Positions 3,676 through 37,537 of a stretch of DNA of 57,852 nucleotides are shown piece after piece; position 1 is the first letter of the stretch; each line of letters opens with the position of its first letter. The translations under genes and the position numbers were made by a program. The notes beneath the pieces are model-generated. The model saw nothing but the letters and a program-made list of their open reading frames with translations, had not been told where the DNA came from and did not search any database. Source of the stretch: Acidobacteriota bacterium (GTDB lineage: Bacteria > Acidobacteriota > Thermoanaerobaculia > Multivoradales > Multivoraceae); assembly GCA_029263415.1 (NCBI GenBank), contig JAJCXN010000011.1:1-57852 (forward strand), given 5' to 3'.

Positions 3676-5130
3676 GTGCACACCGACAACCGACCGACAC
3701 CGGATTCGTCGATCCAACCGCAACAGTCGGTCTGGAGCCGGGCGCTGCGACGCTTCTTGCGACCGGTCTCCAACCACAAGCGAAGGTTGCTGGACGCTCG
3801 CTGGGAAGAGTTGCCGGTTGATCTGCGCACCGACAGGCAGGCGGTGGGCAGGCAGATGACCCATTGCGGTTACACCATGGGCGCCGCCTTTTGTTCTTTT
3901 GGCTGCACCCACTGCTACTTGCCCAAGAACGCCAATAGCGCGCCGTTGCCTACGCTTCTTGAGATGCAAGAGCAGATCGACGCCAACTACGCGGTACTCG
4001 GCGAGTTCGGCGCTTTGCAGATCACCGGCGGTGATGTGGTGGATGCCTACTGGAAAGCGGGCCAGTCAGACGAGCTGATCAAGATCATCCGCTACGCCAC
4101 CGGCAAAGGGTTGGTGCCGATGCTGATGACGCATGGCCAAGTGTTGCTTGAGAACCCAGACTACTTTGATGCCTTGGTGAGCAAGGCTGGGTTGCGCAAG
4201 CTGGCGATCCACATCGATATGACGCAGGCGGGCCGTGCGGGCTACCCGATCAAGTCACTCAAGCGCGAGGCGGATCTGCATCCGTTGCGTGATGCATTCG
4301 TGGAGTTGATCGAAGGTGTCGCTGAGCGCACCGGGCGTCCGATTTCTGCGTCGCACACGGTGACCGTGACTGAGGCCAACATCAGCAGCTTGGGTGACAT
4401 CGTTGAGTGGTTTGGTAGATCGCCGAGGAACGCGGTGGCATTCCGCATGCTGAGCGTGCAGCCTGAGGCGAACGTCGGTCGGACCCGTTACTCCATCAAC
4501 CCGGTGACACCAGAGCGCGCCTGGAGTTCGCTCTCACGAGCGCTTGACCTCGACTTGGTTCGCGACAGCGTGCTCTTCGGACACCCCGAGTGCAGCAGTG
4601 TGGCCGCCGTGTTGCTGCGCCCAGCTGGCGCGAACGGCAAAGCTGGCGCGTTGGATCTGATGCCTGATTCGAAGGAGGCGCGCCATCTCGTTTCGGAGAT
4701 TCTGCGGGTCTTTGGTGGGGTCGGTTCGCGCGGTTCCTCTGACCTGGTGGCTAACGCCCAACGTGCCGGTTTGCTGTTGCGACGCCCATTGTTCTTAGTG
4801 GCGGTGGCAAGCTACCTCTGGTCCTTGCGCAAAAAGCGCACCGGCGCGTCCCTGGTGCGCACGGCGCTTGATCTTGTGCGTGGTCGCTCACGACCGATCA
4901 GCCTGGTGATGCACAACTTTATGAACGCCGCAGAACTAGCTGCGCCTCGATCGCAAGTGGTTGATGATCGCCTGGCGGCGTGTTCGTTCAAGGGTGCAGT
5001 CAAGCAGAACGGCAAGTGGCAGGCGGTGCCGATGTGTTCAATGAACGGGGTGGAGCGCGAACAGCTCTACGAGCAGCAGATTGCCGCATCAAGGCAAACG
5101 GAGCTGGTGTCCCTGCAGCGGGCGAGCTAG
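3676..5130 (+). CDS. Radical SAM protein of unknown reaction
   Basis: A 484-residue radical SAM enzyme. The [4Fe-4S] ligands are C73, C77 and C80 in AAFCSFGCTHCYLP, a canonical CxxxCxxC set. ITGGD (about 116-120) is the GGE-type motif that binds the SAM methionine. A histidine-rich strand, IHIDMTQAGRAG, follows near residues 178-190. The C-terminal third is distinct and carries two more Cys residues (AACSFKGA and VPMCSMN, about 436-460), which might bind another cofactor, though no clear SPASM pattern is present. GTG 3676 has AAGGA seven bases upstream, so the start is good. It lies 219 bp before the nonulosonate operon on the same strand. A modification of a sugar or envelope compound is possible but unproven. 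Confidence 0.85.
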   Translation: MHTDNRPTPDSSIQPQQSVWSRALRRFLRPVSNHKRRLLDARWEELPVDLRTDRQAVGRQMTHCGYTMGAAFCSFGCTHCYLPKNANSAPLPTLLEMQEQIDANYAVLGEFGALQITGGDVVDAYWKAGQSDELIKIIRYATGKGLVPMLMTHGQVLLENPDYFDALVSKAGLRKLAIHIDMTQAGRAGYPIKSLKREADLHPLRDAFVELIEGVAERTGRPISASHTVTVTEANISSLGDIVEWFGRSPRNAVAFRMLSVQPEANVGRTRYSINPVTPERAWSSLSRALDLDLVRDSVLFGHPECSSVAAVLLRPAGANGKAGALDLMPDSKEARHLVSEILRVFGGVGSRGSSDLVANAQRAGLLLRRPLFLVAVASYLWSLRKKRTGASLVRTALDLVRGRSRPISLVMHNFMNAAELAAPRSQVVDDRLAACSFKGAVKQNGKWQAVPMCSMNGVEREQLYEQQIAASRQTELVSLQRAS

Positions 5131-5233
5131 TGGGCCCTCGATGTTGCTGTCATGGACTGAGGCGAAGGCACAAACGGTTGATTGGCGCGCCAGGCGCTTT
5201 GTTCCGCCGAGCAGAGTTTCACCACGGGCAGGG

Positions 5234-5262
5234 CGATCTTCCGTAAGATCGACGGAAGATCG
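5234..5262. repeat. Perfect 11-bp inverted repeat
   Basis: CGATCTTCCGT (5234-5244) and ACGGAAGATCG (5252-5262) are exact reverse complements around a 7-base loop. No T-run follows, so it is a poor intrinsic terminator. Lying between the radical SAM gene and neuB, it could be an operator, an mRNA 3' stabiliser or a factor-assisted terminator. Confidence 0.75.
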
Positions 5263-5349
5263 ATCCGCCTCCAACGCGTTCACGCGCGACGCCATCACCA
5301 CTTGATTGCCCATCCACCTTGCGGGCCCAACTAGGATTCTCTTAAGAAG

Positions 5350-6432
5350 ATGTCGGTCTCCTCTGCCAAAGAACCGCTCGCGCTCAAGCAATGGTTCAAC
5401 CAAGCAAGCGATCAAGACGCCAAACAACGACACACGTTGATTGTCGGCGAGGTAGGTCAAGCGCATGACGGCAGTCTCGGTACCGCGCACAGCTACATCG
5501 ACGCGATTGCCGATGCTGGTGCAGATGCGGTCAAGTTCCAGACCCACATCGCCGCTGCCGAGAGCACTGCGGATGAGCCCTGGCGAGTGCGGTTTTCACC
5601 GCAGGACGACCGCAGGATCGACTACTGGCGTCGCATGGAATTCAGCCAAGAACAGTGGGCTGCGCTCAAGGAGCACGCCGAGGCACGCTCGCTCCTGTTC
5701 TTGAGTTCGCCGTTTTCCTTGGAGGCTGTCGACCTACTCGAAGGGATTGGTGTTGAGGGTTGGAAGATCGCTTCAGGCGAGTTGACCAACGCTCAGATGC
5801 TGAGCGCTATCGCAGCAACTGCGAAGCCGGTTCTGCTGTCGACCGGCATGAGCGACTGGGCCGAGATCGACAACGCAATCGAACAGTTGCGTACGGAGGG
5901 CGCTGGCCCGGTTGCGATCTTTCAGTGCACGTCGGCTTATCCTTGTCCGCCCGAGTCGGTTGGGCTCAATCTCATCGCGGAGATCGCGCAGCGGTACCAG
6001 TGCCCGGCCGGTTTGTCCGATCACTCGGGCACTATCTTTCCTACTCTGGCCGGGGTTGCGCAGGGCATGCAGCTTGCCGAGATCCACGTCACGTTGAGCA
6101 AGCGCGCGTTTGGCCCGGACGTGCCGGCTTCGTTGACCGTGGAAGAGTTGAGCCAGTTGGTGGTGGGCACCCGCGCGATCGAATCCATGTTGGCGCATCC
6201 GGTCGACAAGGAGGAACAAGCTCGCGTGATGGAACCGATGCGCGCACTGTTTCAGCGGAGCTTGGTAGCTGCGATGGACCTCGACAGGGGGCACACTCTT
6301 CGAGACACCGACCTGGTGGCCAAGAAACCTGCGTCAGGACTTAGTCCGGAGGCCTTGCCGCAACTGATCGGTAGGCGGTTGACCAGGTCGCTCGAGCGCG
6401 ACCAGCGCATCGCGATGGAGGATGTGGAGTGA
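5350..6432 (+). CDS. neuB: N-acetylneuraminate synthase family protein
   Basis: A 360-residue NeuB-family enzyme. The family condenses phosphoenolpyruvate with an N-acetylmannosamine-type sugar to give a nine-carbon nonulosonic acid. The TIM-barrel part opens with LIVGEVGQAHDGS (about 30-42), the family's AEIGxNHxG position with a QAHDG variant. DAVKFQTH (59-66), FLSSPFS, KIASGE and LSDHSGT follow. Residues about 295-360 (RGHTLRDTDLVAKKPASGL) form the C-terminal SAF/antifreeze-like domain. Length is normal for the family. Sequence alone does not separate sialic from legionaminic or pseudaminic acid synthases, but the neighbouring hydrolysing epimerase argues against pseudaminic acid. ATG 5350 has only a weak AAGAAG upstream. 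It overlaps neuC by four bases. Confidence 0.9.
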   Translation: MSVSSAKEPLALKQWFNQASDQDAKQRHTLIVGEVGQAHDGSLGTAHSYIDAIADAGADAVKFQTHIAAAESTADEPWRVRFSPQDDRRIDYWRRMEFSQEQWAALKEHAEARSLLFLSSPFSLEAVDLLEGIGVEGWKIASGELTNAQMLSAIAATAKPVLLSTGMSDWAEIDNAIEQLRTEGAGPVAIFQCTSAYPCPPESVGLNLIAEIAQRYQCPAGLSDHSGTIFPTLAGVAQGMQLAEIHVTLSKRAFGPDVPASLTVEELSQLVVGTRAIESMLAHPVDKEEQARVMEPMRALFQRSLVAAMDLDRGHTLRDTDLVAKKPASGLSPEALPQLIGRRLTRSLERDQRIAMEDVE

Positions 6433-7616
6433 GCGCTGTGAACGAAGCCAAGCGCAAGGTGTGCGTGGTGATCACTGCGCGGCCCAGCTATAGCCGGATC
6501 AAAACCGCCCTCGACGCGATCGTCGCTCACGACGACTTGGAACTGCAGCTAGTCATCGCGGGTTCCGCCCTGCTCGATCGCTATGGCACCGCATCGCAGT
6601 TCGTCGAAGCGGACGGCTTCGAGATCGCTGCGCGTGTGTTCATGGTGCTCGAAGGCGAGACACCGCAATCGATGGCCAAGAGCACGGGCTTGGGCGTCAT
6701 GGAGCTCGCCACCACCTTCGGCAATCTCCAGCCAGACTTGGTGGTCACCATTGCCGACCGTTACGAAACTATGGCGACCGCGATAGCTGCGTCGTACATG
6801 AGCCTGCCGTTGGTGCACATTCAAGGCGGCGAGGTCACTGGCAACATTGACGAGAAGGTGCGTCACGCAATCACCAAGCTCGCAGATCTGCATTTGGTTT
6901 CAACCGCGAAGGCCCAAGAGCGCGTGATCAAGATGGGCGAAGAGCCGAGCACAGTCCACATCACCGGCTGTCCCTCAATCGACTTAGCGGCAGCGGTCGC
7001 AGCAGCACCAGCTTTCGATTTTGATCCGTTCGAACGCTACGGAGGAGTGGGTGAGGTATTCGAGATCGCACCACCGGGAAGCAGCGACGGATACCTGGTG
7101 GTGATGCAGCATCCTGTGACTACGGAGTTCGGAGAGAGCCGCGAGCAGACGCTCGAAACGCTGGAGGCGATCGAGGCCTCCGGACGACCAGCGTTTTGGT
7201 TTTGGCCCAATCCAGACGCAGGCTCGGGTGGTGTCTCGAATGCCATTCGCACATTTCGCGAGCAGGGTCGGTCAGGCCGCATGCACTTTTTTAAGAACAT
7301 GGCGCCGCAGGACTTTCTGCGCTTGCTTGTCAACTCAGCCTGCCTGGTTGGAAACTCGAGTGTCGGTATTCGCGAATGCAGTTTCTTGAGTGTGCCGGTG
7401 GTCAACATCGGCACTCGCCAGTCTGGTCGTGAGCGGGGAACCAATGTGCTGGACGTTGGCTACGGCAGAGCAGAGATCGTTGCAGGGATTGCTCAGCAGA
7501 CCGAGCGCATTCGCCCTCAGAGCGACACCTTGTATGGCGATGGCGTTGGCGGTGTAAAGATCGCCGAGCGAATCGCCGAGGCCCAGTTGCGGTCCGACAA
7601 GAGGCTTGCCTACTAG
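6429..7616 (+). CDS. neuC: UDP-GlcNAc 2-epimerase (hydrolysing)
   Basis: A 395-residue hydrolysing UDP-N-acetylglucosamine 2-epimerase. It would convert UDP-GlcNAc, or the 2,4-diacetamido analogue in the legionaminate route, to the free manno-configured sugar used by the adjacent synthase. Visible motifs are VVITARPSYSRIK near the N-terminus, VTIADRYETMATA, HIQGGEVTGNIDEKVRHAI in the middle, and VGNSSVGIRE with NIGTRQSGRE in the C-terminal nucleotide-binding half. These match the GT-B-like epimerase fold. GTG 6429 sits inside the neuB stop (GTGA), and its own TAG overlaps the neuA GTG by one base, so translation of all three is likely coupled. Acts in the cytoplasm. Confidence 0.9.
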   Translation: MSAVNEAKRKVCVVITARPSYSRIKTALDAIVAHDDLELQLVIAGSALLDRYGTASQFVEADGFEIAARVFMVLEGETPQSMAKSTGLGVMELATTFGNLQPDLVVTIADRYETMATAIAASYMSLPLVHIQGGEVTGNIDEKVRHAITKLADLHLVSTAKAQERVIKMGEEPSTVHITGCPSIDLAAAVAAAPAFDFDPFERYGGVGEVFEIAPPGSSDGYLVVMQHPVTTEFGESREQTLETLEAIEASGRPAFWFWPNPDAGSGGVSNAIRTFREQGRSGRMHFFKNMAPQDFLRLLVNSACLVGNSSVGIRECSFLSVPVVNIGTRQSGRERGTNVLDVGYGRAEIVAGIAQQTERIRPQSDTLYGDGVGGVKIAERIAEAQLRSDKRLAY

Positions 7617-8422
7617 TGAGCGATGCGCCGTTGCGGTCCGCTGCTTTGAGGACGCTGGCAATTGTGCCGGCTCGGGGTGGATCGAAGGGAATCCCGCGAA
7701 AAAACATTCGGCCACTGGCAGGCCATCCATTGTTGGCGTACACGCTTGCGGCTGCAAAGACGGCGGGGCTGGCTCGGGTGGTATTGAGCACAGAGGACGA
7801 AGAGATCGCTGAGGTGGCCCGCAGCCTAGGCTTTGATGTGCCGTTCTTGAGGCCCGAGGAGCTAGCGACCGATGTGACCCCTACCGTGCCGGTGCTGCTC
7901 CATGCGTTGGATCAGTTGCGCGCGTCGGGCGGGCTCGATGGCATCGACTTCGTGTGTGTACTGCAACCCACCTCGCCGTTCCGCGAAGCGACGATCATCC
8001 CTCGCTGTTTGCGGCGTATAGAGCCAGAAGGCGACGCTGGGGATTCAGGGGGCTCAGGCGGCTCAGGCGGCTCGGGGCCAGACTCGGTGGTGACCGTTCT
8101 ACCTGTGCCTACCGAGTACAACCCGCATTGGGTCTACTCACTGAACGACGCAGGTGAGATGGGGCTGTTCATGGGCGACGCCGAACCGATCGCGCGGCGC
8201 CAAGACCTTCCTCCTGTGTTCCATCGCGACGGCTCGGTGTATCTGGTTAAGCGCCGAGTGCTGGAACAAGAGCAGTCGCTATATGGCGCGCGCACGGCGG
8301 GGGTGGAGGTTGAGGGTGCTTACTCGGTGAACCTCGACACTTTCGAGGACTGGCGCAAAGCGGAACTGTTGCTGGCCGCCAACCCGGGACTCGCAGAGGG
8401 TGTTGGTCGAGCGCGACTCTGA
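7616..8422 (+). CDS. neuA: CMP-nonulosonate (acylneuraminate) cytidylyltransferase
   Basis: A 268-residue cytidylyltransferase that would activate the NeuB product with CTP. The nucleotide-binding motif AIVPARGGSKGIPRKN lies at residues 15-30, LQPTSPFR at 116-123, and RRQDLPPVFHRDGSVYL at about 194-210, all standard for the family. An oddity is a run of Gly and Ser (residues about 139-155, DAGDSGGSGGSGGSG) made by a 9-bp DNA repeat. It sits between the active-site loop and the dimerisation region and looks like a recent linker expansion. The gene overlaps neuC by one base and the asparagine synthase gene by one base (TGATG). Confidence 0.9.
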   Translation: MSDAPLRSAALRTLAIVPARGGSKGIPRKNIRPLAGHPLLAYTLAAAKTAGLARVVLSTEDEEIAEVARSLGFDVPFLRPEELATDVTPTVPVLLHALDQLRASGGLDGIDFVCVLQPTSPFREATIIPRCLRRIEPEGDAGDSGGSGGSGGSGPDSVVTVLPVPTEYNPHWVYSLNDAGEMGLFMGDAEPIARRQDLPPVFHRDGSVYLVKRRVLEQEQSLYGARTAGVEVEGAYSVNLDTFEDWRKAELLLAANPGLAEGVGRARL

Positions 8423-10269
8423 TGTGCGGATTGTGTGGAATCTGTGGGCCAGCCGCGAACGCGGAGACGCACCGGCGTGCGGTGCACACCATGTCGGCAG
8501 CGCTCGAACATCGCGGCCCAGATGATTCGGGCGACGTGACCCTTCAGGACTTCTGCGGTTCGTTTCGCCGTTTGAGCATTGTTGATCTGAGCCAGAGCGG
8601 TCACCAACCGATGCAGCGCGGACCCTTGACCCTGATGTTCAACGGCGAGATCTATAACCACCTTGAGTTGCGCCGTGAACTGGTCGCTGCGGGAGCCAGC
8701 TTTAGGGGCTCGAGCGACACGGAGGTTCTGTTGGTTGCGTATGAGCGCTGGGGCGGCGCTTGTCTTGATCGCTTGATTGGGATGTTCGCGATTGCCATCT
8801 GGGACCAGCGAGATCGTTCCTTGTTCCTCGCTCGCGACCGGTTTGGCGTCAAGCCGTTGTACCTAGCGACGGTGCGAAGCCCCGAACAGCCGGAGTCGAT
8901 CGCCTTTGCCAGTGAGATCGGCGCATTGCAGGCCGCTGGTTTGGGGCTAGAGCCGGATCAGGAAACTTGGGCGCACTATCTGGCCGATGGCGCCGCTGAA
9001 CGAGGGCGGCGCACCTTCTGGCGGGGTGTCGAGCGACTCGGTGCCGGCGAGATGGCGACCTACAAGGACGGCGCGCTCCAGCGATCGGTTTGGTACGACC
9101 TAGAGCAACGGCTCGGCGCAACCGAGGGGCTCGATACGCGATCCGATCCTGAGGTAGCCGAGGAGCTTGGCGAGTTGTTCGAAGAAACCGTTCGATTGCG
9201 ATTCCGCGCTGATGTTCCGGTCGGCATCAATCTGAGCGGCGGCCTCGATTCGTCGTTACTGCTCGCGCTCGTCGGGCGAACCCAGGGTGCTTCTCTCGAG
9301 CACATCAACGCCTTCACGTTCGTCACCGGCGATGAGCGCTACGACGAGCTGCCGTGGGTTCAAGGCATGCTCGAGCACACGCCTCATCCGCATCACACAG
9401 TGCGGTTGAAGGCTGAGGAGGTGCCGGAACTGGCAGCTTCCGTCGCCGCTGTGCAGCGCGAGCCGGCAGGCGGCCTACCGACCTTGGCCTACGCCAAGCT
9501 CTTCGAGTCTGCGCACGAGCGCGGCGTCAAAGTGTTGCTCGACGGACAGGGTGTCGATGAGACCTGGGCAGGGTATGACTACTACCGGCGCCTGGTGAAC
9601 GAGCAACCTGTTACGCCTTCTGCACCGATGCTGCAAGGGAGCGCTAGTGCGCCGACCCGACCTCAGGCGATGGCTGAAGAGTTGCGCTCGCTGATCACGG
9701 AAGCACCGAGCGGCGCCGCATCGACTGGCGCCGCAGCGAGCGGCCCCGGACCCTGCGACGCCGGACCATCCGACGCCGGACCATGTGACGCTGCGTCAGC
9801 TCCGGGCGGCAGCGCGGTGCTCGTGCGCCAGCTATTCGACATCCAGCACGGCAAGCTGCCGCGCGCATTGCGCTACAACGATCGGGTGTCGATGCGTTCG
9901 TCGGTCGAGTTGCGCGAACCGTTCTTGGATCACCGTTTGGTCGAATTGGGACTGCGCCAACCGCTTGAACGCAAGATCAAAGATGGCGTGGGCAAGGCGC
10001 TGCCTCGAGAGCTGGCCCAGCGCCTAGTGCCTGCTCAAGTCCGCCTCGCGCCTAAGCGTCCGCTGCAGACGCCACAACGAGAATGGCTGCGTGGTCAGTT
10101 GTCCGAATGGGCTCGAGGGCAGATCGAGCCCGCGGTCCAACTCGGTTGGCTTGACCGTGAGGTGGTGGAAGCCGAGTGGCAAAGGTTTAGCCAAGGCGAA
10201 GGGGATAACGCGTTCTTCATTTGGCAGTGGATCGATCTTGGCATGTTGGTGGGTCGAAACGTCGCCTAA
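8422..10269 (+). CDS. asnB: Asparagine synthase (glutamine-hydrolysing) family amidotransferase
   Basis: A 615-residue class II glutamine amidotransferase fused to an ATP-pyrophosphatase-type synthetase domain. Cys2 is the catalytic nucleophile (MCGLCGICG). HRGPDDSG and MFNGEIYNH follow, and LSGGLDSSLL at 271-280 is the PPi loop that binds ATP. The classic reaction turns aspartate to asparagine, but paralogues in glycan clusters amidate sugar carboxylates. Its coupling to neuA (one-base overlap) makes the latter plausible, without proof. Residues about 426-467 are a low-complexity Ala/Gly/Pro insert built on a 15-bp repeat (gacgccggaccat), absent from typical family members as far as I know. 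Its TAA stop overlaps the convergent kinase stop at 10266-10269. Confidence 0.85.
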   Translation: MCGLCGICGPAANAETHRRAVHTMSAALEHRGPDDSGDVTLQDFCGSFRRLSIVDLSQSGHQPMQRGPLTLMFNGEIYNHLELRRELVAAGASFRGSSDTEVLLVAYERWGGACLDRLIGMFAIAIWDQRDRSLFLARDRFGVKPLYLATVRSPEQPESIAFASEIGALQAAGLGLEPDQETWAHYLADGAAERGRRTFWRGVERLGAGEMATYKDGALQRSVWYDLEQRLGATEGLDTRSDPEVAEELGELFEETVRLRFRADVPVGINLSGGLDSSLLLALVGRTQGASLEHINAFTFVTGDERYDELPWVQGMLEHTPHPHHTVRLKAEEVPELAASVAAVQREPAGGLPTLAYAKLFESAHERGVKVLLDGQGVDETWAGYDYYRRLVNEQPVTPSAPMLQGSASAPTRPQAMAEELRSLITEAPSGAASTGAAASGPGPCDAGPSDAGPCDAASAPGGSAVLVRQLFDIQHGKLPRALRYNDRVSMRSSVELREPFLDHRLVELGLRQPLERKIKDGVGKALPRELAQRLVPAQVRLAPKRPLQTPQREWLRGQLSEWARGQIEPAVQLGWLDREVVEAEWQRFSQGEGDNAFFIWQWIDLGMLVGRNVA

Positions 10270-11684
10270 GGTTCTTGGTGGCGCAGGGCCGAGTAGCGCG
10301 GCTGGTCGATGGCCAGTTGCTGCGCTGCGGTCTGACGGAGGTGCGACTGAAGCTGAGCGTCGTTGAGCGCGATCGCGCCGCTCTTCAGGGCCTCGATCAG
10401 GGCGCTGCGTTGACGGTGCAGAGCGCTTAGGGGAGAGCTTTCCTTCTCGGCGTTGAAGCCAAGCGCCTCGAGCCGATCGGACTCAGCGCGAGCGTCGGCG
10501 CCGTCGAGGGCTGCCTCGCGGATCACGATGTCGATCGCATTGGCAGAGACGCGACTCAAGAAGCTCAGGCGCCCTTGAGTGGCGGGCAGCACCTCAGTCT
10601 TCAAGAAGTGACTGACGGCACCCAGCAGTTCGGTGTGGTGGGCGAGATCGGTGGGCTCGGGGTCGCGCTGTTCGAGCTTGTAGGCCCCAGGGAAGAGCAG
10701 GTTGACGCAGTCCATCTGGCACTCGGAGGTGCGCCGTCCGACCGCGACGCGCTCAACGCTAGGGTCCGGGCCGCCGCGGTTGTGTTGGGCCATGCCGAGC
10801 GTGCTCACCGCCCACCAGAACGAACCGAACACTTCCCACCACTTGACGCGTTGTGCATCGACCGGCACGTTGGTGATCGACTCATAGCCCGCGAACAAGT
10901 CCTCGCGCGTGCCGAAGCCACCAACCGGCAGGGCGCCACCGAAGCGCCACGAATTGCAGCACACCCAGCCCAGATCACGCATGGGATCGCCTAGGTGTGC
11001 AAGTTCCCAATCGAGGACCGCAACGATGCCGTGCTCTTTCGAGATCATCAGGTTGCCGTTGCGAAAGTCGTTGTGCACCAGTTTCGGATCCGTGTCGTGG
11101 GGCAAGTGCGCGAGCAACCACAGGGCCGTGTAGTCGATCATCGGTTGCACGGTGTCGAGCTTCTGGTAGCGCGTCCACATGTCGATAACGAACTGCTTTG
11201 GTGTCAGATGGATCAAGCGCTGCTCGAGGTCGCTCTCGAGTACCAGGTTGTGGATGCGAGCCAGCACTTCGCCGCACTGTCGGGCGAGCTTGGGGCGCAC
11301 TTGGGCGAAGTCATCTGAGCGCACGATGCGGGGTCCAAGGGTCTCGCCGTCGAGCCATTCGAGTAGGAAACCGGGCCCCAGTTCATCGCCGGGCTCAAGC
11401 ACCGCGAAGATCTCTGGTTCGGGAATGCCCGCGGTTCGAGCTAGGCGAAACAGTTCTGCTTCCACCTCGAGACCCGGGTGCGGACTTTCCGGGTCGTGCG
11501 CGCGACCGCCGGCGGCTCGCCGCAGCGCGAACGATCGAGGCTCATCGCCCGTGGTCTTCGCCACCACACGATACGTTTCCTGGCTCGCGCCGCCCGAGAG
11601 CCGATCAAAGCTGACCACTTCGCAGCCTGGTCCGAAAACTCGGTTCAGGACACGACCGACCAACGGTTCCAACTGTTCCACCAC
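10266..11684 (-). CDS. APH-like phosphotransferase with DUF6285-like C-terminus
   Basis: A 472-residue protein whose first about 330 residues form an aminoglycoside-phosphotransferase/choline-kinase-type kinase. The catalytic loop is LVHNDFRNGNLM, with the HxDxxxxN pattern, and the metal-binding motif is VLDWELAHLGDP. The C-terminal about 110 residues (from HTELLGAVSHFLKTEV through SRVSANAIDIVIREAAL) resemble the DUF6285 domain often attached to this subfamily. It is six bases downstream of an acyl-CoA dehydrogenase gene. In ACAD10/ACAD11 of animals, kinase and dehydrogenase domains are fused and act on 4-hydroxyacyl-CoA by phosphorylation then elimination. That is the best guess here. Antibiotic resistance is unlikely. 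Confidence 0.85.
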   Translation of the reverse strand: MVEQLEPLVGRVLNRVFGPGCEVVSFDRLSGGASQETYRVVAKTTGDEPRSFALRRAAGGRAHDPESPHPGLEVEAELFRLARTAGIPEPEIFAVLEPGDELGPGFLLEWLDGETLGPRIVRSDDFAQVRPKLARQCGEVLARIHNLVLESDLEQRLIHLTPKQFVIDMWTRYQKLDTVQPMIDYTALWLLAHLPHDTDPKLVHNDFRNGNLMISKEHGIVAVLDWELAHLGDPMRDLGWVCCNSWRFGGALPVGGFGTREDLFAGYESITNVPVDAQRVKWWEVFGSFWWAVSTLGMAQHNRGGPDPSVERVAVGRRTSECQMDCVNLLFPGAYKLEQRDPEPTDLAHHTELLGAVSHFLKTEVLPATQGRLSFLSRVSANAIDIVIREAALDGADARAESDRLEALGFNAEKESSPLSALHRQRSALIEALKSGAIALNDAQLQSHLRQTAAQQLAIDQPRYSALRHQEP

Positions 11685-15108: not shown

Positions 15109-16164
15109 ATGCTGCTCAACCTCACCGACCTGTCCGCCGAACCACTGCACAGCCAGGTCTATCGGCAGATCCGCTCGCGCATCCTTAGCGGGAGCCTGCC
15201 CGAGGCAGCCGAACTGCCGGCCGCGAGTGTGCTGGCACGCGAGCACCGTGTCTCGTCGAGCAGTGTGCAGCGGGCCTACGATGAGCTCAACGGTGAGGGC
15301 CTGGTGCGAGAAGGTGAAAACGAGAGTTGGCGAGTTGCCGAGCTCTCCGACGAGAATCGACAAGAGCTGGCTCGCCAACGGATGTTCGAATCACTGCGTG
15401 AGCAGGAGCTGTCGGTCAAAGAACTCGAGCTCGCCCGCGACATCCAATGTCGATTGCTGCCGCCCGGCCGAGTTGAAGGCGGCGGCTACGCGGTGGGCTC
15501 GCGCAACGACCCGGCCCGCTTCGTTGCTGGGGACTTCTATGACGTCATTCGTCATGCCGACGGCACGCTTGGGTTGGTGGTGGCCGACGTGGCGGGCAAG
15601 GGCCTGGGCCCAAGCTTGATCATGGCCTCGGTCAAGGCAGTGATGCCGTTTGTCTCGGCAGGGCGGTTGGTCAACGAGACTTTGGTTGAACTCAACAAGA
15701 AGCTGCGCAGAGAACTGCGTAAGCGTGAATTCGTGGCTCTGCAGCTTGGCCACTTCGATCCTGCAACGGGTGCACTGTCACTGTGCAACGCCGGCATGCC
15801 AGACGGTTACTTGCTGGGTGCCGCGGGAAAACCGAAAGCGATCAACGTGCCTGGCGAGCGGTTGCCACTGGGATTGCGCGACGATCCTGACTACCAATCG
15901 GCCACCATCCACTTGGAGATAGGCGATCGGTTCTTGATGTGCTCGGACGGTCTGCCTGAAGCCAACCTGCCTGATGGCGAGCCACTGGGTTACGAACGCT
16001 TCGAGCGACTGTTGAAGCGAGCGAGTGGCGCAGAGCCCGATGTCTGGATCGATGACCTGATGGAGCGGTTGCGGCGCAAGCTGCCAGCCAATCATCGTCG
16101 CGACGACGATTGGACTGCGTTGATGATCGAGCGGCGCACGGGCCACGCCGCGGTGGCTCGATGA
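15109..16164 (+). CDS. GntR winged-helix domain fused to SpoIIE-type phosphatase
   Basis: A 351-residue two-part regulator. Residues 1-75 are a GntR/YtrA-like DNA-binding domain (EPLHSQVYRQIRSRILSGSL; SSSSVQRAYDELNGEGLV) that closely parallels the next gene's N-terminus. After a helical linker (about 80-115), residues 115-342 are a PP2C/SpoIIE phosphatase: FVAGDFYDVI at 138-147 and VVADVAGKG at 157-165 supply metal-binding Asp residues. NAGMPDGYLL, MCSDGLPEA (about 280-288) and the terminal DDDWTALMIER follow. SpoIIE phosphatases normally dephosphorylate anti-sigma-factor antagonists, so a DNA-binding version is unusual. Most GntR members carry a ligand-binding domain instead. It overlaps the next gene by ATGA and heads an ABC-transporter operon. 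Confidence 0.88.
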   Translation: MLLNLTDLSAEPLHSQVYRQIRSRILSGSLPEAAELPAASVLAREHRVSSSSVQRAYDELNGEGLVREGENESWRVAELSDENRQELARQRMFESLREQELSVKELELARDIQCRLLPPGRVEGGGYAVGSRNDPARFVAGDFYDVIRHADGTLGLVVADVAGKGLGPSLIMASVKAVMPFVSAGRLVNETLVELNKKLRRELRKREFVALQLGHFDPATGALSLCNAGMPDGYLLGAAGKPKAINVPGERLPLGLRDDPDYQSATIHLEIGDRFLMCSDGLPEANLPDGEPLGYERFERLLKRASGAEPDVWIDDLMERLRRKLPANHRRDDDWTALMIERRTGHAAVAR

Positions 16165-33771: not shown

Positions 33772-34953
33772 ATGCGGATCGGTTTTGATGTGTCCAAGGT
33801 GGCAACACCGCGTGACGGAATCGGTACTTACTGCGCTCAGCTGCTGGGTGCGATGGCAGAGAGTTCCGAAGAACACACCTTTCGAGCGCACGTGTTGGTC
33901 GAGCCGGCCGACCCAGCGAGCCTGGAGGTTGCGTTGGCTAACTTTCCCGGCTGTGTCGAGCTTGCTCGAGTGCCACCGAGCGAGGATGGCCTAGACGTCT
34001 TTCACGCCACAACGCTGGCGTGGCCGAGGGACTTTGATGGACCCGTAGTCATGACGTGCTACGACCTCACGTTCCTCACACACCCGCAACACCACACACT
34101 CTTGAACCGTCTGCATTGCATCGAAGGCATGGTGCGCGGTGCGGTGGGAGAGGCTCATGTATTGGCGATCTCGCAAGCCACGGCGGATGCGGTGAGCGAG
34201 CACATCGGTGTGCCTCAGGATCGACTGCACGTTGTGCACTGTGCTCCTGGAGAAACTGCTCCGGGCGAATGTGTTCTCGATGACCGCTCTGTAGGTGCCC
34301 GTGGTACAGGGCGCGGCACGCAGGCTGATGGCGATAGCGGACCTGCCCAACTCGGGCCGGACGTGTTCGGGCAGCATGACCTCGTGCCGGACGATCTCGT
34401 GCCCCAAGGTCCCTACGTACTAGCAGTGGGCACTCTCGAACCGCGCAAGAACTTGCGCAGGCTGATCGAGGCGCACGCGCAACTGCCTCTGGAACTGCGG
34501 CAGGCGTTCCCACTCGTGGTAGTGGGCTCGGGCGGGTGGAAGAACGAGCGGCTTCTTGACTGTCTGCAAACGGCAGAGCATGTTCATCTCGCAGGCTCTG
34601 CCGATACCCAACAGTTGACCAAGTTGTACCGCGGAGCTTCAGTGTTCGTGTACCCGTCCTTGGCTGAGGGGTTCGGGTTGCCAATCCTTGAGGCGATGGC
34701 ATGCGGCACTCCCGTGATTACCTCCAACGTCACTTCGATGCCCGAAGTGGCAGGCGACGCGGCTTTGTTAATCGATCCCGAAGACAGCGCAGCGATTGCT
34801 GGTGCCCTCGAGCGTGTGCTCACCGACGAAGCCCTAGCTGCCGAACTCTCTGAACGCGGCAAGCGGCGGGTTGCTGAGTTCTCTTGGCACAAGGCCGCAG
34901 CCGAAACGCTAGATGTCTATAGAGCAGCAATTGACTCAGCCTCGAAGCCGTGA
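33772..34953 (+). CDS. Glycosyltransferase family 4
   Basis: A 393-residue GT-B fold glycosyltransferase. The N-terminal domain starts MRIGFDVSKVATPRDGIGTY with the glycine-rich acceptor loop. The C-terminal donor domain has VLAVGTLEPRKNLRRLIEA and the retaining EX7E motif in EGFGLPILEAMACGTPVI (about residues 305-322). Sugar transfer would occur at the cytoplasmic face of the membrane during polysaccharide or glycolipid synthesis. A loop of about 50 residues between the domains (GECVLDDRSVGARGTGRGTQ...HDLVPDDLVPQ) is longer than usual and partly made of a duplicated DLVP unit. The next glycosyltransferase gene follows 10 bases later. Confidence 0.9.
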   Translation: MRIGFDVSKVATPRDGIGTYCAQLLGAMAESSEEHTFRAHVLVEPADPASLEVALANFPGCVELARVPPSEDGLDVFHATTLAWPRDFDGPVVMTCYDLTFLTHPQHHTLLNRLHCIEGMVRGAVGEAHVLAISQATADAVSEHIGVPQDRLHVVHCAPGETAPGECVLDDRSVGARGTGRGTQADGDSGPAQLGPDVFGQHDLVPDDLVPQGPYVLAVGTLEPRKNLRRLIEAHAQLPLELRQAFPLVVVGSGGWKNERLLDCLQTAEHVHLAGSADTQQLTKLYRGASVFVYPSLAEGFGLPILEAMACGTPVITSNVTSMPEVAGDAALLIDPEDSAAIAGALERVLTDEALAAELSERGKRRVAEFSWHKAAAETLDVYRAAIDSASKP

Positions 34954-34963
34954 GAGCCCTCTG

Positions 34964-37537
34964 ATGCCACTTGACGCTTGCACCATCGTTTCGAAGAACT
35001 ACCTGCCGTTTGCGCGGGTACTGGCTCGTTCGTTCCACGAGCAGAACCCAGAAGGCCGCTTCTTCGTGTTGCTCTACGATCGCAACGATGAGCACATTGA
35101 TGTCTCTCGAGAACCTTTCGAGCTGCTCGAAGTCGAACAACTCGACATTCCCGAACTGCGAGGCTTCCTGTTCAAGTACACCGTGCTCGAAGGCAACACA
35201 GCTGCGAAGCCCTATTTTCTCGAGTATCTCTTCGAGCAGCATAACTGCGAGCGGCTGCTCTATCTCGACCCAGACATCTGGGTGATGAATTCGCTGGCGG
35301 ACCTTGACCAGTTGCTCCAGGAGCACTTGGTGGTGCTCACGCCGCACTTGGATCAGCCGATCGACGATGCCGCACACCCGGGCGAGCAGAGCATCTTGCA
35401 GAGCGGCACCTACAACCTCGGTTTCGTTGGTCTGCGCCGCGACCCGGAGACCCTCCGGCTCTTGCATTGGTGGCAGGCGAGGTTGTGGGACCAATGTGTG
35501 GTTGCGATCGACGAGGGTCTTTTCGTTGATCAAAAGTGGATGGATCTCAGCCCCGGCTTGTTTGACGGTGTTCATGTACTGCGTGACCCCGGCTACAACG
35601 TGGCCTACTGGAATCTCCATGGTCGAACCGTGACCATCGAGGATGGCGCTGTTTTGGCCAACCAACGGCCGCTGGTCTTCTTTCACTTCAGTGGCATCGA
35701 GCCGCACGCGCTGAAGCGGGTGTCGAAGCACCAGGATCGGTTCACCCTGGATCGCATCGGCCAGGCCGCCGACCTCTATCGCTCCTACAGCGAGCGGCTC
35801 ATGGACGAGGGTTTTGACGACTGCAGGGCCTGGCCGTTTGCCTTCGCCACCTTCGACAACGGAGTCCGAGTGCCGGCGGCGGCGCGCAGGCTCTACCTGT
35901 CGTTGAACGCCGCTGATCGGGCCAAGTTCGGCGACCCGTTTGCCGCCGGAGACCCGGCCAGCTTCTTTCACTGGCTCAACCAAGCGCACGATGGCCGCGG
36001 GCAAAGCCCGCCAACGTTGAGCCGCCTACTCGCGCACCTATGGGCCGAACGTTCCGATCTGCACGCCGACTTTCCGGACCCGGCCGGCGCTTCGTGGCCG
36101 AACTTCTCGTCTTGGCTGCGAGATTGTGGGCGTTCAGAGCTTGGTCTGGATGAACCTCTGCTCGCTAACCTGCATCGCGAGTCACCGGTGAGTTGGTTCA
36201 CTCCGTCTGGGTTTCGTCGCCGGTCGCGCAACAGCCTGCGCAAGGCCTGGCGCTCAGATGCCGCGATCGACAGTCGCCGTTGGCTCAAAGGTCGGATGGG
36301 AGCAGAGCGCTTCAACGCGCTGAAGGGGCGCTTGAGACCCAAGCGTCTGACCGCGCACGCTGCAGCCCACCAACCTAACGCTGCGGTTGGATCCACCAAG
36401 GTCCATCGCCCGGGCATCAACTTGATTGGCTATCTTTCCGCCGAAACGGGCATGGGCGAGGCAGCGCGCGGCCTCGCGCGAGCGCTCGCGACCACCGACA
36501 TCCCGCACTCACTACACAATCTGGAGTTGGGCGTCGTCGCGCGCAAGGGCGATCCGTTTGCTGGAGCCTCAACCCTTGCCAAGGGGGAAGACGACTTTCA
36601 GTACGACATCAACCTGCTGGTTGCGAATGCCGACCAGGTTCCGCACATTGTCGACTACCTTGGCCCGCTGGCGTTCACCAGCAAGGTGAATGTGGGCTAC
36701 TGGCTGTGGGAGCTGGAGAACTTCCCTCGGGAGTTTTCAACATCGTTTGATCAACTTCAAGAAGTGTGGACTTCGAGCACCTACTGCGTCGACGCGATCT
36801 CAACTGCCGCTCCGGTGCCGGTGAGGCGGGTGGCATTACCGATCGAGCGGCCGAGTGGGTTTGATGGGAGCAGCGGTGCTCATCGCGAACACTTCAAGAT
36901 CGACCCGGACACCTTCGTAGTGCTCTACATGTTCAACTTCCTAAGCCACTTTGAGCGCAAGAACCCGTTGGCGCTGGTGCGCGCTTTCGAGAAAGCCTTC
37001 GATGCTGACGACGATGTCTTGCTGGTGTTGAAGACATCGCAGGCGAGCTTCGCTGAAGCTGAGTATGAGTCGTTGCTGAAGGCGGCGGAGGGCTCGCGGA
37101 TCCGAGTGGTCAACGACTACCTGGACCGCGCCGAGGTGTGGCGGTTACTGGCAGCCGCTGATGCATACGCCTCGCCTCACTGCGCCGAGGGCTACGGTCT
37201 CACGTTGGTCGAATCGATGGCTCTCGGTAAGCCGGTGATTGCAGCGCCCTATTCAGGCGTGGCCGACTTCTTCAATCTAAACACCGGGCTCGAAGTGCGC
37301 TATCGACGGGTAGCTCTCTCGGACGATCATGGGCCCTATGCGAGTGGCTCAAGGTGGGCGCAGATCGACGAGCAGCATCTTGCTGAGCGGTTGAAGGAAG
37401 CATTCGAGAATCAACAGCGTGTTGCTGAGTTGGGCGAAGCCGCACAACGCGTTGTCGAAGAGGAGCTATCGTACGCTGCGATTGGGCGAAGGCTTCAACA
37501 GCGCTATGACGCTATCGTTGAGCGCTTTTCTCCATAG
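34964..37537 (+). CDS. Two-domain glycosyltransferase (GT-A plus GT4)
   Basis: An 857-residue fusion. Residues about 1-290 look like a GT8-type GT-A enzyme: ACTIVSKNYLPFARVLARSF at the start, LLYLDPDIWV with a DPD metal motif, and LQSGTYNLGFVGLRR. A middle region of about 190 residues, rich in Arg, Trp and Ser, links to a GT4 domain. The latter begins INLIGYLSAETGMGEAARGL and contains HCAEGYGLTLVESMALGKPVI, the EX7E motif, near the C-terminus. I place the start at ATG 34964; the in-frame ATG at 34913 would overlap the previous gene by 41 bases and adds little. One protein could add two successive sugars to a polymer. Confidence 0.85.
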   Translation: MPLDACTIVSKNYLPFARVLARSFHEQNPEGRFFVLLYDRNDEHIDVSREPFELLEVEQLDIPELRGFLFKYTVLEGNTAAKPYFLEYLFEQHNCERLLYLDPDIWVMNSLADLDQLLQEHLVVLTPHLDQPIDDAAHPGEQSILQSGTYNLGFVGLRRDPETLRLLHWWQARLWDQCVVAIDEGLFVDQKWMDLSPGLFDGVHVLRDPGYNVAYWNLHGRTVTIEDGAVLANQRPLVFFHFSGIEPHALKRVSKHQDRFTLDRIGQAADLYRSYSERLMDEGFDDCRAWPFAFATFDNGVRVPAAARRLYLSLNAADRAKFGDPFAAGDPASFFHWLNQAHDGRGQSPPTLSRLLAHLWAERSDLHADFPDPAGASWPNFSSWLRDCGRSELGLDEPLLANLHRESPVSWFTPSGFRRRSRNSLRKAWRSDAAIDSRRWLKGRMGAERFNALKGRLRPKRLTAHAAAHQPNAAVGSTKVHRPGINLIGYLSAETGMGEAARGLARALATTDIPHSLHNLELGVVARKGDPFAGASTLAKGEDDFQYDINLLVANADQVPHIVDYLGPLAFTSKVNVGYWLWELENFPREFSTSFDQLQEVWTSSTYCVDAISTAAPVPVRRVALPIERPSGFDGSSGAHREHFKIDPDTFVVLYMFNFLSHFERKNPLALVRAFEKAFDADDDVLLVLKTSQASFAEAEYESLLKAAEGSRIRVVNDYLDRAEVWRLLAAADAYASPHCAEGYGLTLVESMALGKPVIAAPYSGVADFFNLNTGLEVRYRRVALSDDHGPYASGSRWAQIDEQHLAERLKEAFENQQRVAELGEAAQRVVEEELSYAAIGRRLQQRYDAIVERFSP

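Follow-up and report, generated by a model that had tools for sequence, protein, structure and literature searches.

A nonulosonate operon with an unrecognised, NeuA-linked branch of AsnB-like amidotransferases

The closest described counterparts of the system reported here are the NeuC-NeuB-NeuA pathways to N-acetylneuraminic acid (Neu5Ac) and legionaminic acid (Leg). We analysed a stretch of 57,852 bases from an Acidobacteriota bacterium (hereafter the window), which is the whole of contig C11 in a genome of 6.89 Mb, 60 contigs and 99.2% completeness. The window encodes the same three core enzymes in adjacent, overlapping genes, but its NeuB and NeuA miss the equivalog cut-offs and a fourth gene, encoding an AsnB-like class II glutamine amidotransferase, overlaps the operon.

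With AsnB and human asparagine synthetase (ASNS), the branch to which this fourth protein belongs shares the two-domain fold, Cys2, the pyrophosphate-binding loop (PP-loop) and the equivalents of K466, D367 and E368. It differs from them by Gln or Asn at the position of Glu364, Asp at that of Ser362, a GG-x-P motif in place of T-T-x-R, and its linkage to NeuA. By sequence (154 bits) and by fold, the nearest solved structure to the window protein is the TsnB9/SaHAT hydroxyamidotransferase, which belongs to a small-molecule pathway and not to sugars; TsnB9 is 28% identical over the structural alignment and keeps the Glu (GEAADE) where the branch has Gln or Asn. Two further families carry the AsnB fold outside asparagine synthesis, namely TIGR03108 (the XrtA/PEP-CTERM amidotransferase) and TIGR03104 (N-acetylglutaminylglutamine amidotransferase), and the window protein scores 322 bits and 312 bits against their cut-offs of 817 and 570.

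A possible functional parallel is the amidine decoration of nonulosonates by PseA/PtmG of Campylobacter, PP-loop proteins that stand alone and lack a class II glutaminase. As in the window, a nonulosonate context is described for the asnB gene of Tannerella forsythia (Tanf_01265), whose AsnB-domain protein is encoded in a pseudaminic acid (Pse) O-glycan cluster; by that description the cluster holds Pse/Leg genes instead of neuBCA, and asnB lies near wecB/wecC (PMC6120980). Among the papers listed in one of the literature searches, this was the only one to contain the term asparagine synthase. A literature search, mostly at the level of titles and abstracts and covering few subscription papers, returned no description of a neuBCA-asnB cassette. 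We regard the nonulosonate operon with an unrecognised amidotransferase branch as what appears to be new here.

The operon consists of four genes in the order neuB-neuC-neuA-asnB. Their successive overlaps of 4, 1 and 1 bases in the window's list of open reading frames (ORFs) bear out the overlaps of one to four bases given in a preliminary description of this DNA:

5350..6432, + strand: NeuB-type nonulosonate synthase (N-acetylmannosamine (ManNAc)-type sugar plus phosphoenolpyruvate), PF03102 and SAF domain
6429..7616, + strand: NeuC-type hydrolysing UDP-N-acetylglucosamine 2-epimerase, PF02350 and TIGR03568
7616..8422, + strand: NeuA-type cytidine monophosphate (CMP)-nonulosonate cytidylyltransferase, PF02348
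8422..10269, + strand: AsnB-like class II glutamine amidotransferase of the NeuA-linked branch, a proposed nonulosonate amidotransferase, PF13537 and PF00733

Profile searches place the three core enzymes in their families. NeuB scores 221.8 bits against PF03102 (cut-off 22.1), carries a SAF domain, finds its best PDB matches in SiaC/NeuB and is the sole PF03102 match of the genome; with 299.5 bits it stays below the cut-off of 399.65 of TIGR03569, the N-acetylneuraminate synthase equivalog. NeuC exceeds the equivalog cut-off of TIGR03568 (364.1 versus 235.9 bits) and is 74% identical to a homologue in LB_ACB_1, an Acidobacteria metagenome-assembled genome (locus L024). For NeuA, we obtained 66.5 bits against PF02348 (CTP_transf_3; cut-off 22.6) and 159.6 bits against TIGR03584 (PseF), which is below the cut-off of 205.7. 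We mapped the NeuB discriminator positions onto a published scheme, in which Pse synthases are described with Phe at the C2 discriminator and Leg synthases with Tyr at the 184-type position (PMC7371886, section 7). The window protein has Gly at the former, as in Neu and Leg synthases, and Ser at the latter, as in Pse synthases, and with these mixed residues Neu and Leg cannot be told apart. Of seven PF02719 dehydratase matches in the genome, two are strong and have long frames (650 and 671 amino acids), both outside the operon; they are compatible with precursor supply by a legionaminic route but do not demonstrate it. The nearest genome with the same operon, G002, is graded as the same family as that of the window.

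Among 37 loci of NeuC relatives from named records, seven have a strong AsnB homologue behind NeuA; these come from Acidobacteria, Cyclobacteriaceae, two other Bacteroidetes records, Ignavibacteria, Chloroflexi and Desulfofustis. As this first set of loci had been chosen through NeuC, we added searches that used AsnB only. A branch profile, A1, was built from ten members, and a score of about 790 bits or more was taken as membership. The window protein, itself one of the ten rows, reaches 862 bits against this profile. All 30 branch members score at least 794 bits and other AsnBs at most 565: up to 325 bits in nine genomes and up to 402 in further loci, bar the AsnB of locus L013 (565 bits), which is the same gene as that of L064 and a sister of the branch. 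In a 54-row AsnB tree from a short search, 29 branch members form one group with a Shimodaira-Hasegawa-like approximate likelihood ratio test (SH-aLRT) value of 100 and with L064 as sister. The sister gene (L064:8958-10868) is of the GQGGDE type, lies about 6 kb from NeuA on the opposite strand of a locus with NeuBCA and a dehydrogenase, and may encode a related sugar amidotransferase.

In surveys of single phyla, profile A1 gave matches at 1e-150 in 14 of 396 genomes of the window's phylum, in 8 of 395 of the Bacteroidota sample and in one each of 392 Planctomycetota, 301 Chloroflexota and 297 Desulfobacterota genomes. The genomes on which samples were centred are counted, and those of the Chloroflexota and Desulfobacterota samples are the ones that matched; a first-look filter scored only three to four candidates per genome. 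The branch is rare yet widespread, with members in five phylum-level samples.

A same-strand NeuA lies near the branch AsnB in 28 of the 30 loci, the Planctomycetota locus included, in flanks of about 9 kb or as much of these as the contig contained, and in 17 of the 30 the ends of the NeuA and AsnB profile matches are 30 bases or less apart. When only those branch loci are counted that were found by AsnB similarity alone (L061-L063, L111-L129 and L141), the linkage holds in 21 of 23; the seven members outside this count are the window and six first found via NeuC (L026, L034, L037, L038, L039 and L056). By comparison, the 1.5 kb flanks of 16 loci with non-branch AsnBs (15 places; L013-L023 and L098-L102) all lacked NeuA, wider flanks being used only for the sister in L064. 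NeuA accompanies this AsnB branch more often than chance would allow. The nonulosonate operon with a coupled amidotransferase, as proposed in the preliminary description, is thus supported by a branch-specific linkage to NeuA, and the synteny of neuBCA-asnB is conserved among relatives in several phyla. Moreover, the AsnB-like protein is neither the organism's only candidate asparagine synthase nor devoid of conserved linkage to neuBCA, since the genome holds six strong AsnB proteins (7.2e-65 or better, out of nine PF00733 matches that include the operon protein) and the linkage recurs in several phyla.

Relatives of neuBCA exist with and without the AsnB gene, and the gene trees describe this pattern of gain and loss. 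On the NeuA tree of 49 rows, eight gains or losses are required to account for where the branch occurs, at least five of them forced by starred branches; the NeuC and NeuB trees need ten changes each, with four and five forced, respectively. These trees are short searches in which gains are indistinguishable from losses, and the label counts were made without L031, L035, L036, L043, L051, L055, L057 and L058 (truncated or unclear surroundings) and without NeuA, NeuB and NeuC rows under the score limits. The AsnB gene has thus repeatedly joined or left neuBCA loci, and we therefore regard it as a modular gene for decoration and not as a required step of the pathway.

We then turned to the active site of the AsnB-like protein, for which the numbering of the E. 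coli and human enzymes was mapped from our alignments to solved structures. Four elements are referred to below:

8425..8427, + strand: Cys2 codon, the glutaminase nucleophile, Cys in 30 of 30 branch members
9235..9255, + strand: SGGLDSS PP-loop for ATP pyrophosphate binding, residues 272-278; all 10 rows agree at 272-277, and 9 of them have S278
9469..9483, + strand: GGLPT motif, residues 350-354, which replaces the T-T-x-R of E. coli and human asparagine synthetases in the alignment to 1ct9 and 6gq3
9541..9561, + strand: DGQGVDE motif, residues 374-380, in which the branch alignment places Gln for human Glu364 and Asp for Ser362

The catalytic framework of the AsnB family is retained. All 30 members keep the glutaminase residues Cys2, N74 and D99, the PP-loop residues G273 and D276, and D379, E380 and K545, which correspond to human D367, E368 and K466. 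The equivalent of Lys466 is described as essential in E. coli AsnB (PMC6748925). The synthetase site is altered. In a comparison of the 30 branch members with 25 other AsnBs from the loci at hand, which is no balanced sample and includes no proven asparagine synthetase, the Glu364 position (residue 376) is Gln in 24 and Asn in six branch members, and Glu in 14, Asp in eight, Gln in two and Leu in one of the others. The Ser362 position (residue 374) is Asp throughout the branch and Ser or Thr in 22 of the 25; in human ASNS, a computed model has this serine in contact with the ribose 2'-OH (PMC6748925). Within GGLPT, G351 and P353 occur in all 30 members and G350 and T354 in 29 each, while Gly is found in one and Pro in none of the 25 other AsnBs at the first two positions (human T337 and R339). 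Human ASNS variants E364Q, E364A and D367A are reported as inactive with aspartate, ATP and ammonium (PMC6748925). With Gln or Asn at the Glu364 position in 30 of 30 members, the branch is thus probably not an asparagine synthetase. Judging from these residues, we expect its members to draw on glutamine and ATP like AsnB without forming asparagine.

An AlphaFold2 model built from eight rows (predicted local distance difference test, pLDDT, 79.7; predicted template modelling score, pTM, 0.84) shows both domains of the AsnB fold in full, with low confidence at residues 395-408 and 427-462. Its closest structure is the TsnB9 hydroxyamidotransferase (Z 36.2, 2.9 Å over 535 residues), followed by E. 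coli AsnB (1ct9; Z 34.8, 2.7 Å over 471) and human ASNS (6gq3; Z 31.6).

With this information at hand, we propose, with about even confidence, that the four genes serve to build and decorate a sialic-acid-like nonulosonate and that the AsnB-like protein is a modular nonulosonate amidotransferase, most likely producing a C1 carboxamide. We observe the order of the genes, a distinct branch with recurrent linkage and an altered synthetase site; the substrate, the product, the order of steps and the destination are what we infer. Going by family membership, NeuC would detach the nucleotide carrier from a ManNAc-type sugar, NeuB would condense this sugar with phosphoenolpyruvate and NeuA would activate the resulting nonulosonate with cytidine triphosphate (CTP). 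The AsnB-like protein would hydrolyse glutamine at Cys2 and pass the ammonia to its C-terminal ATP-pyrophosphatase domain, where a carbonyl of the nonulosonate, whether free, CMP-activated or within a glycan, would be adenylated and released as an amide. The product would be a C1 carboxamide, that is, a sialic-acid-like sugar without its charge.

Two considerations point to C1. To our knowledge, all characterised AsnB-fold enzymes activate carboxylates, and C1 bears the only carboxylate of a plain nonulosonate, which makes the C1 carboxamide the most likely product. SaHAT, a homologue of TsnB9, is described as activating a free carboxyl with ATP (PMC13418202). In addition, none of the 30 branch loci contained a UDP-sugar dehydrogenase, as judged from one query at an E-value of 1e-15 and from stretches of limited length; the same query matched four other loci, its own source among them. 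With no such dehydrogenase in the branch loci, and hence no uronate in sight, the best candidate is the C1 carboxylate of the nonulosonate itself.

Several observations weigh against this proposal. We found no carboxamide of a nonulosonate in the literature searched. An N-acyl or amidine decoration would agree equally well with the methyl-, formyl- and FkbH-type acyl genes found in the loci of relatives. NeuA is missing from the stretch examined in two branch members, L114 and L121 (for the 35.5 kb contig of L114, all 20.6 kb upstream and the downstream part to 31.4 kb), and in L118 NeuA and AsnB stand together with NeuB and NeuC on the opposite strand. The window protein passes the general asparagine synthase model TIGR01536 (367.8 bits, cut-off 267.1). 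T-T-x-R is absent from all 25 other AsnBs as well, so that its loss alone is not specific to the branch, and the two non-branch AsnBs with Gln at the Glu364 position are those of L064 and L017; single residues are therefore not unique to the branch. Finally, the changed residues by themselves fail to separate a carboxylate from an amide substrate.

In the main rival explanation, the AsnB-type protein, with its own glutaminase, would be an acetamidino synthase that activates the N-acetyl carbonyl of the nonulosonate and replaces its oxygen by ammonia to give an N-acetimidoyl group, of the kind linked to PseA/PtmG in Campylobacter; this product and the carboxamide would not differ in mass shift. 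Acetamidino groups can be N-methylated, and methyltransferase-type genes lie in or beside the neu-AsnB stretch of L038, L112, L113, L115 and L119. Argininosuccinate and GMP synthetases activate amide-like carbonyls, and a neutral amide at the Glu364 position could suit a neutral substrate. These two synthetases are described as lacking the acidic pocket (PMC6748925), and acetamidino groups are well known on pseudaminic and legionaminic acids (PMC3068675, PMC7371886). In T. forsythia, the AsnB of the cluster was proposed as the source of the 5-acetamidino group, but the same paper also describes asnB as conserved with wecB/wecC in Pse and Leg strains and a uronamide in the same glycan, which leaves that proposal ambiguous (PMC6120980). 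In our branch, D379 and E380 are kept and the Ser362 position became Asp in all 30 members, so the acidic pocket is not simply neutralised. Together with the carboxylate substrates of the AsnB-fold enzymes considered above, SaHAT among them, this leads us to consider an acetamidino synthase unlikely, at roughly one chance in five.

The remaining explanations appear less probable still. A uronic acid of the same glycan might be amidated by an enzyme merely housed with neuBCA, as in the Bordetella b-Cool oligosaccharide, and a uronamide glycan locus with an AsnB-like gene is described (PMC12407052). We regard this as quite improbable, given that the single dehydrogenase query found nothing in the 30 branch loci, read over stretches of limited length, and that neuBCA are the only sugar genes coupled to the AsnB-like gene in the window. 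It is slightly more doubtful again that the enzyme is an amide ligase, which would use another amine in place of ammonia and join it to the nonulosonate carboxylate or to an acid made by nearby FkbH or 2-hydroxyacid dehydrogenase genes. Amides with other amines are indeed formed by beta-lactam synthetase and similar relatives with the AsnB fold, the predicted fold matches beta-lactam synthetase (Z about 29), and two relatives' loci encode FkbH-acyl carrier protein (ACP)-thioesterase and formyltransferase-adenylation-ACP-thioesterase proteins; however, acyl genes of this kind are lacking from the operon of the window, and the intact Cys2, N74 and D99 in all 30 members are expected of an ammonia user. 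An ordinary asparagine synthetase that came to lie in the operon by chance is the least probable of all. The TIGR01536 score would fit it, and in the branch genome G453 the branch protein is the sole AsnB-like match at 1e-20, where a role in asparagine synthesis is possible. Against it stand the six strong AsnB proteins of the window genome, the separate branch with its recurrent NeuA linkage, and the replacement of Glu364 in 30 of 30 members, a change that is reported to kill human ASNS (PMC6748925).

By eye, the neu-AsnB loci of relatives resemble polysaccharide loci, with glycosyltransferase and Wzm/Wzt-type ATP-binding cassette (ABC) transporter genes, and also hold methyltransferase, polysaccharide deacetylase and formyltransferase genes. 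In L115 (10705-15093) and L116 (6204-9197), neuBCA-AsnB loci encode a formyltransferase-adenylation-ACP-thioesterase and an FkbH-ACP-thioesterase protein, whose domains suggest that thioester-borne acyl groups (formyl, glyceroyl) are put on the sugar. A D-2-hydroxyacid dehydrogenase gene is present in five of 29 branch loci and in ten loci without the branch; in several phyla it is wedged among or beside NeuA, NeuC and AsnB (L026:6686-7654, L056:9813-10826 and L063:8447-9418, among others).

Of 29 branch loci, 20 contain a member of a GT-B-like family, cl4, whose gene often comes after NeuA or AsnB and, in several of these loci, immediately after AsnB. The window genome has a single cl4 match (contig C5:159964-161358; L130:1474-2919), with SWDN and GSTM motifs, and no glycan genes were recognisable by eye around it. 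Four of five cl4 members score 34-49 bits (cut-off 200) against the model of the BFO_1060 glycosyltransferase family, and the fifth gives no match; BFO_1060 may be GtfS, which is a guess of ours. In Pfam, one member has a weak PF04464 match and another none. GtfS of T. forsythia is described as a pseudaminic acid transferase (PMC6120980). We treat the cl4 protein as a candidate nonulosonate transferase, as a lead only. Neither Wzx nor a sialyltransferase was seen among those window ORFs that were read or scanned, a subset of all ORFs.

Within the window, the operon ends after the AsnB-like gene, as a phosphotransferase-type gene on the opposite strand (10266-11684), which is followed by an acyl-CoA dehydrogenase gene, overlaps its end by 4 bases. 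No Rfam match was obtained across the window at gathering scores, and no match to plasmid sequences at 1e-60. About 24 kb from the neu operon, 33772-37537 holds two adjoining genes for glycosyltransferases of the GT4 type, the second encoding 874 amino acids with a long N-terminal region without a Pfam match. At 15109-16164, a GntR-type DNA-binding domain is fused to a SpoIIE-type phosphatase domain, an unusual regulator fusion; next come another GntR-like ORF and one that resembles an ABC transporter.

Upstream of NeuB lies one further gene:

3676..5130, + strand: divergent radical S-adenosylmethionine (SAM)-like protein with a CxxxCxxC motif

The preliminary description had placed a nearby radical SAM gene before the neu genes. 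Its position upstream on the same strand stands, but the family match falls below the PF04055 cut-off (19 bits versus 29.5; E=0.0017), with no Pfam match at 1e-3, and the product may at best be a divergent radical SAM protein. A long frame with CxxxCxxC is present in ten of ten homologue loci inspected, where frames had been picked by that motif. Nearly all its PDB matches are repeat proteins over about 40 residues and were not taken as kin. A part in the nonulosonate pathway might be suggested by the gap of only 219 bases to NeuB (5131-5349) and by the lack of a promoter- or terminator-like site in 5000-5500. However, of 97 other related genomes, 21 have a homologue, and G002, the nearest genome with the same cassette, has none; in G052, the radical SAM-like gene and the cassette gene are on different contigs. 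The flanks of about 1.5 kb around 11 homologue loci are free of neu genes and of branch AsnB genes, and searches of 24 other neu loci and of L010-L060 brought up no homologue. A partnership with the operon is therefore not supported: a pathway role is highly improbable, and we rejected the gene, which is not a conserved neighbour of neu loci, as a partner, taking it for a neighbour rather than a part.

For genes annotated as AsnB, the signature DG[QN]G.DE..AGYDYY together with a PLQTPQREW-like stretch offers a simple first test for membership in the branch. On a tentative view, held with somewhat less than even confidence, several bacterial phyla make a natural nonulosonamide, in which a dedicated AsnB-derived enzyme converts the C1 carboxylate into a neutral carboxamide. 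If so, the TIGR01536 label "asparagine synthase" would misname a sugar-modifying enzyme of five phylum-level samples. Assays of the 1,2-diamino-4,5-methylenedioxybenzene (DMB) type need an alpha-keto acid, and such assays, as well as surveys of bacterial sialic acids that rely on a charged alpha-keto acid, might miss the product. The sugar would keep the sialic acid scaffold and lose the negative charge on which most sialic acid biology relies.

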